Part shown: piece after piece, positions 4,790-21,424 of the stretch
Layout of the letters: each line of letters opens with the position of its first letter
How positions within the stretch are numbered: position 1 is the stretch's first letter
DNA from: Actinomycetales bacterium
GTDB lineage: Bacteria; Actinomycetota; Actinomycetes; Actinomycetales; Kineosporiaceae
Length of the DNA stretch: 34,030 bases
Assembly: GCA_012719445.1 (NCBI GenBank)
Contig: JAAYAH010000221.1
Coordinates: forward strand, 1-34,030
Direction: 5' to 3'
Program-made: the position numbers and the translations under genes
Notes under the pieces: generated by a model
Told to the model about the DNA's origin: nothing
What the model saw: the letters and a program-made list of their open reading frames with translations, nothing else
The model's database searches: none

Positions 4790-5256
4790 GCCCGGTCGTG
4801 GATCCCGGTCGGCATCCCCACTGCAGATCTCTCGACGGCGTCCCACACCTCGGGGCGCCGGCTGGTCCTGACCGCCTCGGCGATCCCCGGATCGCGGTGG
4901 AGCAGGTCGGCCAGGTGCCGCACCGCGTGCGCGGCCACGTGATGGGAGTGCAGACCCGGCGGGGACGGTCGCAGCGGGTCCCCCGAACACACCACCGCCG
5001 GAGCCGACAGGTCCACGGCCCCCGCGGCCGGGTCCGGATCGGGCACGGCCGCATAGGTCAGCACCACCCGAGCGTCGTCCTCACAGCGCCACGACGTCGA
5101 GTGCACCACCTCGACCTCGGGCCCGGCCACCGCCAGCGCCACCCGATCAGGCCTCTCCTGCCGTCCCAACGTGTGCCGGCGCACCCGGTGACACAGAACG
5201 CCCCCCGACCGCACCCCGAGGAACACGACCTCCACGTCCACCCACCGTGGTGACAC
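4711..5256 (-). CDS. Conserved protein of unknown function, divergent from tsaD
   Basis: A 181-residue protein without a recognised domain. It begins VSPRWVDVEVVFLGVR, continues with HRVRRHTLGRQERPDRVALAV and HSTSWRCEDDARVVLTYAAV (about residues 67-86), and has a later GLHSHHVAAHAVRHLADLL segment rich in His. It looks soluble. I recall similar sequences in other actinobacteria but no function. The GTG at 5256 is chosen because GGGGAGG lies four bases before it. The palindrome at 5281-5297 sits 25 nt upstream and is shared with tsaD, so the gene is probably part of the same metal-responsive set. Its last 79 bp overlap def tail-to-tail, which is unusual but leaves both proteins intact. Confidence 0.7.
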   Translation of the reverse strand: MSPRWVDVEVVFLGVRSGGVLCHRVRRHTLGRQERPDRVALAVAGPEVEVVHSTSWRCEDDARVVLTYAAVPDPDPAAGAVDLSAPAVVCSGDPLRPSPPGLHSHHVAAHAVRHLADLLHRDPGIAEAVRTSRRPEVWDAVERSAVGMPTGIHDRAHRAADGLDVVSIRARSATAPVSRSR

Positions 5257-10053: not shown

Positions 10054-11378
10054 GACCGATCTGGGTCTGGCGTCGCAGCACACCGGGTGGGACCGGGTCA
10101 CCCTCACCGGGGCCGCTATAGACGTGATCATGGTTACCCCGCAGGTCCACATACCCCACCACGGTCACCCCGTAGCTGGTGTAGGAGCCGTTCCCGCGCA
10201 GGTCGAGGGTGGCGGCGGGAGCGTAGAGCGTGCCGTGCACGGTCAGCGCACCGTTACCCGTCCACCGCAGATCGGTGGCGTTGTTGCGGTCGGCGATCAC
10301 AGCGAAGCCCTGGTAGGGCCCGGTATCGGGGGCCCAGACAGCGGCCGTGCCGTTCCCCGCGCCAGCCAGGCTCGCCCCCGCCTCGCCGTCGGCGCAGGAC
10401 CGGGGGTAGTAGCCGGTCTTCTTCCCACCCGTGACGCAGGTGAGGTAGAACACCACCCCGTGGACCTCAACCCCGCCGTGGATGGTGTGGGAGCCACCGG
10501 CCAGCACGTAGACCCCGGGGGTGAAGGAGGTACACCCGTCGATGCTGGTGTAGTTCCCAGGGGTACACGCGCCGCTGGGGGCGGTCGCGGCCACCGCGGG
10601 GTTCAGCTCCGGCGGCGGCAGCACCAGGGAGGCGAACGGGTCGGTGAACGCCTCCTGCGCCACCGGTGCCGGGCTGAACGACCCGTTGTGGTTCCAGGTG
10701 CCCGCGTAGCCGATGATCCCGCCGACAGCATCGACGATCCCATTGGCGTTGTTGAAGGTCATGTCCCCGTTCACCGCCACGCTCCCGCCGTCCACGCTCA
10801 GGTGTCCGACCTGACCGCGGAAGTCCTCCAGCACGCAGAACACGCACGGCCCCGAGAACACCTCCCGCACGCTCCAGCCCGCCTCGGCCACCGCCTGGAC
10901 ATGGACGTCGTCCTCGCCCAGTACGCCCCCGAGCAGCGCGGGCACCAACCGGCCCGGGATGACCACCCGCGTGCTCCCCGTCGCGGTATTCCACCGAGAT
11001 GCACCCGGTCACAGGATGGACAGGCAGAGCGTGGTCGTCGGTGCACGAGGCCCACTCCGCGGCGGTAACCCCGTAGTTCCTGCTCGCGAAGCTCTCCGCC
11101 CGCGAGACCGCCACCAGGGTGGACTCCCCCTCGGCCAGAGCCACCGCCGCGGCCAGCGCACTACTATCCGCGGCGTTCTGCGCCTGCCCCCTGGTGTCCA
11201 TGGCCAACCCCAGATCAAGCACCAGAGCCGCGACCCCCAACAGCACCACGATGAGCACAGCGACCAGAACGGCCACCGCCCCCTCATCCCCCGACCCACC
11301 GTCACCGAGGCGATCGACGGACTCCGACCCGGTACCCGAGTGCAGAACCCCGGGTCGAGTGAACAGCCACCTGGACAC
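10043..11378 (-). pseudogene. TadE/TadG-like surface or pilus-associated protein, frameshifted
   Basis: Two frames join into one protein of about 440 residues. The N-terminal part (11378 to about 10980) has DEGAVAVLVAVLIVVLLGV and LAMDTRGQAQNAADSSALAA, the hallmark membrane anchor of TadE/G-like Flp pilus-assembly proteins in actinobacteria. The C-terminal part (about 10975 to 10043) has a Gly/Asn-rich beta domain with FTPGVYVLAGGSHTIHGG, CVTGGKKTGYYPRSC and VDLRGNHDHVYSG. Removing one C from CCCC at 10976-10979 restores YRDG-STRVVIPGRLVPALL. The GTG at 11378 has GAGAGG upstream. A one-base error in the sequence is as likely as a true mutation. No other tad gene is nearby. Confidence 0.78.
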
Positions 11379-13828: not shown

Positions 13829-15001
13829 ATGACACCGACGAATCTTCGGGAGACCCTGCTCGCGGGGACGGCGAACCCGCCTCCGCCTCGCCACATCGAT
13901 CTCGCCCAGGCGATGGTGCACGGGGGACGGCGGCGGCGCAGGCGCCGCGCGGTGGCCTCGGTCCTGGCCGGCACCGGGGTCTGCGCTCTGGTCCTCGGCG
14001 GGTTCGCCGCCGCGCGGGTCCTCGAGTCGTCCGGTCTGCTGGGCGAACAGGCGATCCCCCCTGCGGCAACGCCTCGGGCGGCGGCCGCCTTCGATCCCCT
14101 GACCATGGGAGTCTCCGTCGGCTGGCTGCCGGAGCCGCTGCGGGCCGATGCCCCGGCCGTGATCTCGATATCCGGCACGGGCTTGGCATCCCAGGCCTTC
14201 TTCGCGAACTCCGAGTCGGAGACCGCCTCGCAGGACGACGGGAAACCCGGCGACGACCGTCTCGAGGTCGACGTCGCCGTGTTCGCTCCGGGACAGGAGA
14301 GCGAGCGGGGTGCGACCAGTGAGGACATGAGGCAGAGCCTGAGCTCGGCCGGGCAGAAGGCCGTGCCCGGCCCGGTGGTCCGGGGCCGGCAGAGTCTGTG
14401 GGTGGCGGACACCGACACCGTCGGCGGATCTCTGTGGTGGCAGTGGGCGCAGAACCAGTGGGCCAAGGTCGAGCTGGGCAACGCCGCGTCGACGGCGGCC
14501 GAGGGGTCCGTCCAGGACGTCGCCAGGAGGATCGCCGAGAGCGTGACCACGGACGGCCGCAAGCCGGTGCGCTTCCCGTTCGGTGTCGAGGCGCCCGCGG
14601 CACCGTTGCGGCTGGTCGAGACGCAGCTCCAGACGGACGGCGACGTCTTCGCCGCCACTGCGCATTTCGGCGCCTCGGACAGTGTGACGTCGTCGGCCCC
14701 GGACCCGACGGGTGAGGTCTACGTCGGGGTGTCACCCGTGGGAACCAGCTACGACTGTTCGGCGGCCGGGTCCCTGACCGAGACCACCACGCCGGAAGGC
14801 CACAAGGCCCTGGTCGGGTACTCCGCCGAGGACGGGTGCGTCGTCCTCCCCGAGTTGGACGGTTACCAGGTCACGGTCATCGTCCGGGAGGCATCGACAA
14901 CCCGTCTCCTCCCACGGAAGGCGGCCCTGGACCTCGCCGACACCGTCCGCCTGGTGGACGACCCGCAGGACGTGGCGTCCTGGGTGACTCCGGTGCGGTG
15001 A
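13829..15001 (+). CDS. Membrane-anchored exported protein of unknown function
   Basis: A 390-residue single-pass protein. The first 40 residues are cytoplasmic and end in an Arg-rich stretch (GGRRRRRRRAVASV). One membrane helix follows at about 41-60 (VLAGTGVCALVLGGFAAARV). The remaining 330 residues should be outside the cell and include WLPEPLRADAPAVISISG, SLWWQWAQNQWAKVELG and two Cys in the last third (YDCSAAG, EDGCVVLP) that could pair. The layout resembles the anchored proteins often encoded after ECF sigma-factor genes in actinomycetes, but no sigma factor lies upstream. The ATG at 13829 has GAGAG close upstream. It is convergent with the MMPL remnant, 13 nt away. Confidence 0.8.
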   Translation: MTPTNLRETLLAGTANPPPPRHIDLAQAMVHGGRRRRRRRAVASVLAGTGVCALVLGGFAAARVLESSGLLGEQAIPPAATPRAAAAFDPLTMGVSVGWLPEPLRADAPAVISISGTGLASQAFFANSESETASQDDGKPGDDRLEVDVAVFAPGQESERGATSEDMRQSLSSAGQKAVPGPVVRGRQSLWVADTDTVGGSLWWQWAQNQWAKVELGNAASTAAEGSVQDVARRIAESVTTDGRKPVRFPFGVEAPAAPLRLVETQLQTDGDVFAATAHFGASDSVTSSAPDPTGEVYVGVSPVGTSYDCSAAGSLTETTTPEGHKALVGYSAEDGCVVLPELDGYQVTVIVREASTTRLLPRKAALDLADTVRLVDDPQDVASWVTPVR

Positions 15002-15014
15002 GGGGAGTCGGAGG

Positions 15015-16839
15015 TCACAGGTCGGGGCCCGCCGCGTCGCGGTGGGCCCCGACCGGGTGCCACCACGCGGCCCGGCCGAGGACGACCAGGAGAGCGGGGA
15101 CCAGTGCCATGACGGCCACCAGCGCGTACAGGGCGATCGCCGTGGCCAGCCCGAACCCGAAGAGGTTGACCACCCGCTGGTCGTTGAGGACGAAGCTCGC
15201 GAAGACCACGACCATCACCGATGCGGCCGCGAGGACGACCCATGACGTCGCGCCCATCGCGTCGACGACGGCGCGCCGCGCGTCCCCCGTCCGTCGGTAC
15301 TCCTCGTGCACCCGGCTCAGCAGGAACACCGCGTAGTCCGTGGAGAGCCCGAACAGGACGGCGAACAGCATCACCGGGGCGAAGGACTCCACCGGTCCGG
15401 GCTCGGCTCCGAGAAGCCCGGCGGGCCACCATCCCCACTGGAACACCGCGACCACCGGTCCGTACGCGGCGCCGACGGCGAGCAGGTTCATCCCGACGGC
15501 GACGAGCGGGACCAGCAGCGACCGGAACTCCACCAGCAACACGAGCAGGGCCAGGCCGACCACCAGCAGCATGAACCAGCCCATCCGCGCGTCCAGGGTG
15601 TCGGCCAGGTCGATGCTGGTCGCCGTCGCCCCGCCGACATGTGTCTCGGCACCGGTCGCTGCCCGGGGCAGCACGGTGGACCGCAGGTCGTGCACCAGGC
15701 CCTCGGTCGACTCGTCCTCGGGGCTGGTCACGGGTACCACGGTCAGCGTCACGGTGGTTCCCGCCGGGTCGATCCGTGGTGGCGACACCTGCCGCACCCC
15801 GTCGGTCGCGGTGATCGCCGCCCGAAGTGCACCGGCACCCCGTTGCACCTCGCCCGACGGGGTTCCGGGTCGGTACGCCGCCGTGACCAGCAGCGGACCG
15901 GTCCAGCCGGGTCCGAAGTCGTCGGCGACGAGATCGTACGCCCGCCGCCACGGTGACCGCGCTGGCCAGCCCGAGGGCGGAGACGAACGGTATGCCGATG
16001 AGGGTGAGGCTGAGGATGGCGGTGATCACCATCACCCCGGCCACCATGACCGCCCGCCCGGCCGTCGACATCGACGTCACGACGGACTCGTCCGGTGCGC
16101 GGCCCTGGGCCAGTCCCTCGCGGTGCCGGGTCACGATCAGCAGCGCGTAGTCGATGCCCACCCCGAGGCCGATCATGGCTGCCACGACGGGACCGGAGGT
16201 GCCGATGGTCACCCAGTTCGTGAGCAGGCCGATCGTGGCCAGGCCGACGCCGAGCGCCGTCAACGCGGTGACGACGGGCACCACCATCGCGAACAGCGAG
16301 CCGAAGGCGAGGAACAGGACGAGCACCGCCGCGACGAGGCCGTACACCTCGCTGCCGGACGGTCCCGACTCCACCTGCACGGCCGGGCCGCCGTACTCGA
16401 CCTGCGCGCCCAGATCGGTGAGTGGATCGAAGGCCGCCCGCGCTCGGTCCACGGCCTCCGGAGGGATGTCCTCGGCGCGGTCGGCGAACTGCACGCTGAC
16501 GATGGTCGTCCGGCCGTCCGGCGAGACGAGGCCTGTACCCGGTGCGTACGGGGACCGGACGGCTGCGACCGCCGGATCGGCCGTGACCTGCCGGATCGCC
16601 CCCTCGACCCCGGCCGGCACCTGCGGCTCGCCGACGCCCTCGCCGTGTCGGACGACAACCTGCATGCCGTCCCCCGCGAGGTCGGGGAAGCTCTCCCTCA
16701 GCGTGTCGTAGGCCTGCTGGGAGTCGGTGCCGGCGAGGGTCAGGTCGTTGGTGAAGGAGCCGGCGAACAGCCGGCTCACCCCCAGCGCAGCCAGGAGCAG
16801 GACGATCCAGGTGATGATCACCGGCCAGCGGTGGCGCAC
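15015..16839 (-). pseudogene. MMPL-family transporter, broken by internal deletion and 5' truncation
   Basis: Two frames are recognisably the halves of one RND/MMPL exporter. The first half (16839 to about 15945) has RHRWPVIITWIVLLLAALG, a periplasmic loop, then IGLGVGIDYALLIVTRHREG and LTLIGIPFVSALGLASAVTV. The second half (to 15015) has AYDLVADDFGPGWTGPLLV, a loop, then FAVLFGLSTDYAVFLLSRVHEEY and a final membrane bundle. At 15941-15950 the first frame stops resembling the family right after AVTVAA and the other frame starts at AYDLVADD. About 100 residues usually found between them (two membrane helices and a linker) are missing, and the frame changes. The N-terminus is also cut: RFSVRHRWP reads into the TetR gene. 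It is unlikely to make a working transporter. Confidence 0.85.
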
Positions 16840-17365
16840 GGAGAAGCGTCTGTTCGTCGAGCGCGGCTACGTCGCGGTACGTGTGGAGGACATCGCCCGC
16901 GCCGTCGGCATCTCCCGGGCGACCTTCTACAAGCACTTCGCCGAGCGCGAGGAGATCCTCGCCGAGCTCTTCGCCCGGCTGCTCGGCCGGCAGGCCGGAC
17001 CGCTGCCACCCGGCACCTCCGCCGAGGCGGTCGAGCGGATCCGTCGGCTGCTGACCGAGACGGCCGCCGCCATGGTCGCCAACGAGCGCCTGGCCAGGTT
17101 CATCTACACCCTGCCCATCCGGCACGCCGCGTTGCTCGACGAGGGCACCCGGCCACCGGTGTTCGAGGTCGTCGAGCGCCTCGTCGAGCAGGGCGCGGCC
17201 GCCGGGGTGGTCCGCCCGGACGTCCTCCCGGGGCTGATCACCGGTCACCTCGCCAGGACGTTCGAGGCGGCCATGCGGGACTGGGCCGAGGGGCGGGTCC
17301 CGGAGGTGACCGCCCACCTCGGCGTGCTCCTGGACCTCGCCTTCCACGGCGCCACGGTGCGGTAG
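16814..17365 (+). CDS. TetR-family regulator with truncated N-terminus
   Basis: A 183-residue frame from the ATG at 16814 showing a TetR-type DNA-binding domain: RLFVERGYVAVRVEDIA, then the helix-turn-helix AVGISRATFYKHFAERE, followed by a ligand-binding domain with ANERLARFIYTLP and GLITGHLARTFEAAMRDWAEG. Normally an extra helix of about ten to fifteen residues precedes RLFVERGY; here that place is taken by ITGQRWRTEK, read from the opposite strand of the MMPL start. The start also overlaps the divergent MMPL start by 26 bp, leaving no promoter. The gene is probably the original repressor of the MMPL exporter, cut at its 5' end by the same deletion, and may not be functional. Confidence 0.75.
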   Translation: MITGQRWRTEKRLFVERGYVAVRVEDIARAVGISRATFYKHFAEREEILAELFARLLGRQAGPLPPGTSAEAVERIRRLLTETAAAMVANERLARFIYTLPIRHAALLDEGTRPPVFEVVERLVEQGAAAGVVRPDVLPGLITGHLARTFEAAMRDWAEGRVPEVTAHLGVLLDLAFHGATVR

Positions 17366-19540: not shown

Positions 19541-20491
19541 TCAGCCGTCGTAGGCGGGATCGAAACTCTTCATGATCTTGGCGATGTCACCCCGCGGGTC
19601 CCCCTCCACGTCGGAGTAGAAGGAGACGAAGAACCCGCCGGCACGCTCGGACGGAACCATGTACGTGGTGACGTAGTTGGTCAGGTCCTCTCCGTCGGGG
19701 TCCTTCAGCGTCATGCTCCCGGTGAGCCGGATCGCCTGCGCTCCCGCCACCGTGGTCAGCTCGGGGAACACGCTGCTCATCCCGGGTTGCGCGGACATGG
19801 CCTTCGCGACCTGCGCCGCGGTCTCGTCGGTGAACTCCGGCAGAGAGCCGGGGGTCTTGACCACCAGGAAGTACTGGAAGGTGGCTTCACCCTGGGTCCC
19901 CGTGTAGACGCCCATCATGGTCATGTTGTTCAAGGCCTGGGTGTTCCGGCTGGACTCGAGGATCTCGGCGAGTTGCGGGTTCTTCTCCGCGGCGTCCTCG
20001 GCCCATTCCCGGAGCTCCTTCGGACTGGTCGGCATCTGCTCCCAGTCCTCGGGCAGGGTGAGGGTCAGCCCGTCCTCGGCCGCGATGACCCGGGTGGTGT
20101 TGTCGGGAGCCTCGGTCGTCCGCTGGGCGATCTGCTCGTTCGAGGGTTCGGGGTCCTCGGTGAGGGACCGCAGCCCCAGGGCGCCGAAGGCCAGGGCACC
20201 CAGCACCAGCACCGAGCCGATGACGGCCAGCACGACGATCTGGGCTCGGTTCCTCGTCGGGAGGGGCTCGGGCGGCTGGGTCCCGTACGGTCCGTGGTGA
20301 CCGGGGACGGGCACGGGCACGGGGCCGGGGAGGGCCGGGACGGCGGCGGGCGCAGCACCGGGGGGCGGGACGGCGGCGGGCGCAGCACCGGGGGCCGGGA
20401 CGGCGGCGGGCGCAGCACCGGGGGCCGGGTCGACGGTGGAACCCGGGGCGGGCGCGGGGTCGGGGAGGGGCGGATCGACGCGTTCCTGCAT
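19541..20491 (-). CDS. Single-pass membrane protein with Pro/Ala repeats and an extracellular domain
   Basis: A 316-residue protein in three parts. Residues 1-75 are cytoplasmic and low-complexity, with three copies of a PAPGAAPAAV-like decapeptide encoded by a 30-bp DNA repeat. One membrane helix follows at about 88-110 (IVVLAVIGSVLVLGALAFGALGL, shortened as VLAVIGSVLVLGALAFG). The outer part begins after an acidic linker with DGLTLTLPEDWEQMP, continues through FQYFLVVKTPGSLPEF and ends with SFYSDVEGDPRGDIAKIMKSF. The outer domain resembles the PsbP/LpqN-like folds common in actinobacterial surface proteins; this is a pattern impression. The ATG at 20491 is chosen because it starts the repeat-containing part. 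It is divergent from the GNAT remnant. Confidence 0.75.
   Translation of the reverse strand: MQERVDPPLPDPAPAPGSTVDPAPGAAPAAVPAPGAAPAAVPPPGAAPAAVPALPGPVPVPVPGHHGPYGTQPPEPLPTRNRAQIVVLAVIGSVLVLGALAFGALGLRSLTEDPEPSNEQIAQRTTEAPDNTTRVIAAEDGLTLTLPEDWEQMPTSPKELREWAEDAAEKNPQLAEILESSRNTQALNNMTMMGVYTGTQGEATFQYFLVVKTPGSLPEFTDETAAQVAKAMSAQPGMSSVFPELTTVAGAQAIRLTGSMTLKDPDGEDLTNYVTTYMVPSERAGGFFVSFYSDVEGDPRGDIAKIMKSFDPAYDG
20339..20428 (-). repeat. Three tandem 30-bp repeats coding PAPGAAPAAV
   Basis: Three nearly identical 30-bp units begin at 20339, 20369 and 20399 with the core GACGGCGGCGGGCGCAGCAC; they differ only at one or two bases in the G run. They lie in frame in the Pro/Ala-rich region of the membrane protein, so copy number can change without a frameshift. 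Confidence 0.85.
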
Positions 20492-20621: not shown

Positions 20622-21424
20622 ATGCAGATCATCGATCTCGCGGACGACCGGAAGGAGCTGTTCAGCCTCTGCCTGGAGGACTGGTCCGACGAGGCAGGGG
20701 AGGCCGGGCCCAAGCGCCGGCAGTGGCTGGACACCTGCCAGCGGTGTCACGGGTTGCGGGCGAAGCTCGCCCTCGACGACGACGGCGTCGAGAGAGGGAT
20801 GATCCCGTACGGTCCCATCGAGAACAGCTACGTGGACGGGACCGGGCTCTACCTCGTGTACGGCATCCACGTCCACGGGTCCGGCGGGGGCGGGGCGACT
20901 TCCGCGGGCGTGGGATGGGCAAGGCCCTGCTCGCTGCGGCCGAGGAGGACGCCCGTCGACTCGGTGCGACCGGTATGGCGGCGTGGGGCGTGCGCCTCCC
21001 GTTCTGGATGCGGGCCTCCTGGTTCCGCCGGCACGGCTACCGGACGGCGGACCGGCAGGGCATCGCCGCGCTGGTCTGGAAGCCGTTCACGGCCGAGGCC
21101 AGCCCACCGCGCTGGTTCCCCGCCACGTCCAGGCTGCCCGACCCGGTCCCGGGGAAGGTGAACGTCGTGGCCTTCACCAGCGGCTGGTGCCTGGCCCAGA
21201 ACCTCGTCTACGGGCGTGCCAGGAGGGCCGCGGCGGAGTTCGGTGACAGCGTCGTCTTCCGGGAGATCGACACGACGTCGAGGTCCGCCGTCGCGGAGTG
21301 GGGCGTCGCGGACGCCGTCCTCGTCGACGGGAGGAACCTGCAGAAGGGGCCCTCGCCGAGCTACCAGGCGATCCACAGGGCCATCGCCAGGCGGGTGGCA
21401 CGGCAGCGGCGCCGATCCCGGTAG
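20622..21424 (+). pseudogene. GNAT acetyltransferase with thioredoxin-like tail, frameshifted
   Basis: The N-terminal part (20622 to about 20885) reads MQIIDLADDRKELFSLCLED and later TGLYLVYGIHVHGS. The rest (about 20887 to 21424) is in another frame: GRGDFRGRGMGKALLAAAEE is the acetyl-CoA-binding loop of a GNAT domain, followed by GATGMAAWGVRLPFWM. A second domain with VNVVAFTSGWCLAQNLVYGRA and VADAVLVDGRNLQKG looks thioredoxin-like, as in two-domain GNAT/YoaP-type proteins. Adding one G to the GGGGG run near 20884-20888 would restore one frame of about 267 residues. Real mutation and sequencing error cannot be told apart here. The gene is divergent from the Pro/Ala-repeat membrane protein with 130 bp between. 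Confidence 0.75.

Follow-up and report, generated by a model that had tools for sequence, protein, structure and literature searches.

A head-to-head MMPL transporter/TetR regulator locus with two missing segments in an actinomycete draft contig

Introduction

In the 34,030-base contig C195 of an Actinomycetales draft genome, the whole of which is referred to here as the window, an MMPL transporter gene and a TetR-family regulator gene meet head to head with no start codon of either gene left between them. The locus raises the question of whether a promoter region was deleted in the organism or lost from its sequence. An initial annotation, made from the letters of the contig, proposed that a deletion had fused the 5' ends of a divergent pair. 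Together with an internal deletion in the transporter gene, this would make two lesions at one locus or an assembly that had lost sequence twice. The contig belongs to a 5.4 Mb draft genome (G000) of 283 contigs, with a completeness estimate of 99.3%.

Results

Remnants and relatives of the gene pair

The two MMPL parts score 143.3 and 122.4 bits against PF03176 (gathering cut-off 20.5), which places both in the family. No single frame runs through both, as the reading frame shifts between them and a segment is missing. The TetR remnant scores 49.1 bits against PF00440 (cut-off 24) over positions 7 to 47 of 47, whereas the protein of its relative L022 (Actinomadura formosensis) covers positions 1 to 47; a complete TetR_N helix-turn-helix domain is therefore not found in the window. 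All three remnants have open frames, a third-position GC of 0.91-0.95 and family-level matches, which does not indicate long decay.

We scanned one genome per species with the TetR remnant and obtained 38 loci, in five of which (L021 to L025) the TetR gene was translated. The closest relatives are those of Actinomadura formosensis NBRC 14204 (L022, 71% identical) and Actinomadura latina (L021, 70%), followed at 45-51% by L023 to L025, the last of which comes from an Acidimicrobiia MAG. An adjacent divergent pair is present in only two of these five loci, L022 and L025, so that the size of any loss rests on two loci. No MMPL match was found in the 10.5 kb of L021, the TetR and MMPL genes of L023 lie on the same strand, and those of L024 are divergent with about 1.2 kb between them. 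Relative to L022, the 5' part of the MMPL gene is 60% identical across 289 residues and the 3' part 72% identical across 308 aligned columns.

Table 1. Features of the window discussed in the text. Missing lengths are given relative to the relative named.
Feature	Coordinates	Strand	Remarks
TadE/G-like gene, small frame break	10960..10990	-	Scan position 10965; Pfam Tad in 5' part
MMPL transporter, 3' part	15018..15947	-	PF03176 E 2.5e-35 (frame 15015-15950); frame differs from 5' part
Internal MMPL junction	15943..15947	.	Bases fitting either MMPL part; 254 (L022) to 269 (L025) bp missing
MMPL transporter, 5' part, without start codon	15943..16848	-	PF03176 E 1.1e-41
Fortuitous ATG within antisense MMPL, in frame with TetR remnant	16814..16816	+	MITGQRWRTEKRLF at 16814-16855
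MMPL/TetR gene junction	16846..16848	.	142 (L025) to 236 (L022) bp absent in window
TetR-family regulator without start and first DNA-binding part	16847..17365	+	TetR_N positions 7-47/47
GNAT-like acetyltransferase gene, small frame break	20865..20900	+	Scan position 20877

The head-to-head junction

The MMPL residues RFSVRHRW are encoded at 16825-16848 on the minus strand and the TetR residues RLFVERGY at 16847-16870 on the plus strand, with an overlap of 2 bases. Between these landmarks lie 234 bp in L022 and 140 bp in L025, and 236 or 142 bp are thus missing in the window. In both L022 and L025, the missing stretch contains both inferred start codons, together with sites of the ACACRTGT type that resemble a TetR operator. 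The two genes of the window lie on opposite strands with facing 5' ends, as in a divergent TetR/exporter pair, and the promoter/operator region common to both starts is absent. Since the 5' ends abut, the original starts and any spacer are both gone. The proposed loss of the promoter region with both starts is borne out by the divergent L022 and L025 loci, in which the stretch is present. As sequenced in the window, neither the MMPL nor the TetR gene could be expressed from its own start.

The exact position of the join differs slightly from the one first proposed, which had RFSVRHRWPV as MMPL, EKRLFVERGY as TetR, and the two genes meeting around 16841-16848. The MMPL reading, the TetR reading of RLFVERGY and the approximate position all stand. 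The residues that precede RLF are E-K in the window versus A-L in all five translated relatives, which indicates that GAGAAG (16841-16846) is antisense MMPL sequence (S and F codons) and places the join at 16846-16848. The whole of GAGAAGCG as meeting place, or as an 8-base homology common to both genes, was therefore ruled out, GAGAAG reading as MMPL only. The bases that fit both genes number 2, or 3 at most, the third being shared if the codon before R ended in G.

The internal break of the transporter gene

The internal break is located about 0.9 kb from the head-to-head junction, and the reading frame changes across it. In the window, SAVTVAA (15943-15963) and RRAYDLV (15927-15947) have 5 bases in common. 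Their spacing is 249 bp in L022 and 264 bp in L025, so that 254 or 269 bp are missing. The internal deletion assumed in the initial annotation is thus confirmed, the segment being present in both relatives and absent from the window. The two halves of the gene are also about 270 bp apart in all seven same-family loci (L176-L182), as opposed to overlapping in the window; these loci are only 38-46% identical and lack this TetR in their vicinity, and they were rejected as intact references and used only to support the internal loss. The comparison with TetR/MMPL loci of relatives, which had been put forward as a check, therefore finds both missing stretches in L022 and L025, and the choice between two lesions at one locus and an assembly that lost sequence twice is upheld.

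Putative operator sites

In L022, the inferred start codons are 102 bp apart and the sites ACACATGT, ACATGTGT and ACACGTGT are located at 4834-4853. ACACATGT and ACACGTGT also occur at 4910 and 4932 of L025 (region 4910-4939), positions at the inferred start of the TetR gene and shortly within it. In L023, the two precede the TetR match (2480-2510). No ACACRTGT-type site was found in L021, and L024 has one only, 3.5 kb off the query match. Matches of this type are expected 0.115 times on average in a shuffled 10.5-kb sequence. The ACACRTGT-type sites are taken here as the likely operator of this TetR branch. The sole match in the window, at 15637, is within the MMPL gene.

Distribution and search for the missing pieces

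No close TetR relative was found in the 12 other genomes of the family (best 2.3e-9), and none reached E <= 1e-25 among 393 further class genomes, in each of which 8 candidates were scored. This absence, together with best relatives in Actinomadura and Acidimicrobiia, suggests that the MMPL/TetR locus is accessory and perhaps horizontally gained.

The missing pieces were also searched for in the own genome. The L022 MMPL protein as query recovered the split gene and apparent paralogues (the long ones 33-40% identical), and no separate copy of the missing MMPL segment. The operator pair pattern had no match, nor did the 34-residue TetR N-terminus of L022, in what was a weak search with a short query and no positive control.

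Other frame breaks

We performed a frame scan trained on the own genome. It detects a change of frame on one strand where the segments on either side span 150 bases or more, and it misses in-frame losses as well as the head-to-head junction. Fourteen places were flagged in 1,035 kb of the draft genome, four in the window and ten in the other 1,001 kb. Five were kept by eye, three in the window (10965, 15938 and 20877) and two outside (L200 9657 and L088 696). The nine that were dropped are eight apparent gene-to-gene junctions and window position 20489, the coding status of which is unclear. Control scans with the same script flagged one place in 400 kb of each of the complete genomes G010 and G013, and a pair of neighbouring places in the 249 kb scanned from the draft genome G005.

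Two of the breaks kept in the window affect genes unrelated to the pair. The DNA of the TadE/G-like gene aligns colinearly, at 72%, with that of a paralogue in the own genome (contig C15, 37209-38123), which is 66% identical and has an open frame. The DNA of the GNAT-like gene, with a Pfam GNAT match in its 3' part that scores at or under the gathering cut-off, is colinear at 73% with G005 and G001, both of which have an open frame. Four lesions, namely the two MMPL/TetR losses and these two small breaks, are thus found within 10 kb of the 34-kb contig. The figure for this clustering is 1.4e-4 with four kept events and about 3e-4 with five, post hoc both ways. GC in 300 bp around the four breaks is 0.70-0.73, and the median of the window is 0.72.

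Elsewhere in the draft genome, a PilZ-domain gene is split over two frames at 9650-9660 of L200 (contig C197), a sure break, and a frame break at about 696 of L088 (contig C150), upstream of a phage-integrase SAM-like domain, is probable only. In the complete genome G010, the 5' part of an apparent sensor kinase is fused, by eye, to a response regulator in a different frame (L105, about 19072).

Discussion

We regard loss in the assembly or consensus as somewhat likelier than recent decay of the efflux locus in the organism. The source locus would be an ordinary divergent pair, with an MMPL/RND-type exporter on the minus strand, a TetR-family repressor on the plus strand and a short promoter/operator region between them which, by analogy, the repressor would occupy until released by ligand. 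Stretches of about 140-236 and 254-269 bp would be unrepresented in the draft contig, with their edges joined at a handful of matching positions. The surrounding stretch would be poorly resolved, hence the two small indels in neighbouring genes, and the promoter and starts would be absent from the assembly and present in the organism. Such a loss is favoured by the concentration of breaks in one contig, by the fact that two small ones affect unrelated genes, and by how well the remnants are preserved; the fragmentation of the draft also counts for it. The few breaks in the rest of the sampled genome count against it, as they indicate that the assembly is not generally bad, and so does the fact that the missing segments are not known as repeats. 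The four breaks have a local GC typical of the window, which likewise counts against loss, and high-GC drop-out was rejected as its cause. The two small breaks in unrelated genes tilt the balance to the assembly, short of proof.

A real and recent pseudogene is a less probable explanation that nevertheless carries considerable weight. Two distinct deletions, with 2-5 matching bases at each join, would have left both genes dead or nearly so, the second being neutral because the first had already silenced the pump. The few bases that fit both sides at each junction are as in short-homology deletions, and the pair looks dispensable, given that a close TetR relative is present in 0 of 12 family and 0 of 393 class genomes. 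The complete control genome G010 likewise has one flagged frame break, and its kinase/regulator fusion seems genuine, which implies that real events of this kind occur. However, the explanation requires two deletions within 1 kb in remnants that have no further stop codon, and it leaves the small breaks in two nearby unrelated genes unexplained. It is very unlikely that a real deletion produced a working rearrangement in which the TetR remnant is translated from the ATG at 16814 with a replaced N-terminus. This ATG does precede the junction in frame, and the frame is open, but at 72% GC open frames are to be expected by chance. Moreover, TetR_N begins at position 7, which truncates the DNA-binding domain in its first helix, and the operator-like sites and the pump promoter are gone from the junction. 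Least credible of all, real deletions might have left a TetR remnant that is made with a lost or changed DNA target and acts elsewhere or titrates ligand.

The main relevance of the locus is for annotation. Gene callers could list two products for which open frames exist: a 658-residue MMPL protein (14863-16839) ending in a nonsense tail, and a TetR protein of 212 residues (16727-17365) with a false N-terminus. If the deletions are real, the locus is an ordinary instance of efflux locus decay. In addition, the relatives point to a candidate operator motif in this branch of TetR proteins.

Errors of assembly or consensus have a precedent in Vibrio fischeri ES114, for which PMC2330054 reports that 75 of 82 suspected loci were confirmed as errors, mostly frameshifts, and that the genome was corrected. 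As in the window, frame breaks and large length errors were recognised there against a relative. Unlike in the window, the large errors described in that paper were mainly extra sequence rather than losses, and the relative used for comparison was of the same species.

The original pair is an ordinary ActR/ActA-type arrangement, ActA being an MMPL-type exporter. Like ActR/ActA (actII-ORF1/ORF2) of Streptomyces coelicolor, it combines a TetR-family gene and an MMPL/RND-type exporter gene that point away from each other across a short common region; in contrast to ActR/ActA, the window lacks that region, the start of either gene and an internal part of the transporter. The NCBIfam name of the MMPL subfamily TIGR00833 is 'actII', and scores against it are far under the cut-off of 874.7 (67.7 for the window part and 170.6 for L022). 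The pair of Actinomadura formosensis NBRC 14204 has the same orientation as that of the window, at the identities given above (TetR 71%, MMPL 60% and 72%), and differs from it in that the missing stretches are present. According to PMC3511530, actR and actA are 110 bp apart, ActR binds between them and represses actAB, and ActR and four other TetR-family proteins encoded less than 200 bp from a divergent neighbour repress that neighbour. By analogy, the TetR protein of the intact locus would bind the sites between the genes and repress the pump, and a ligand would relieve this repression.
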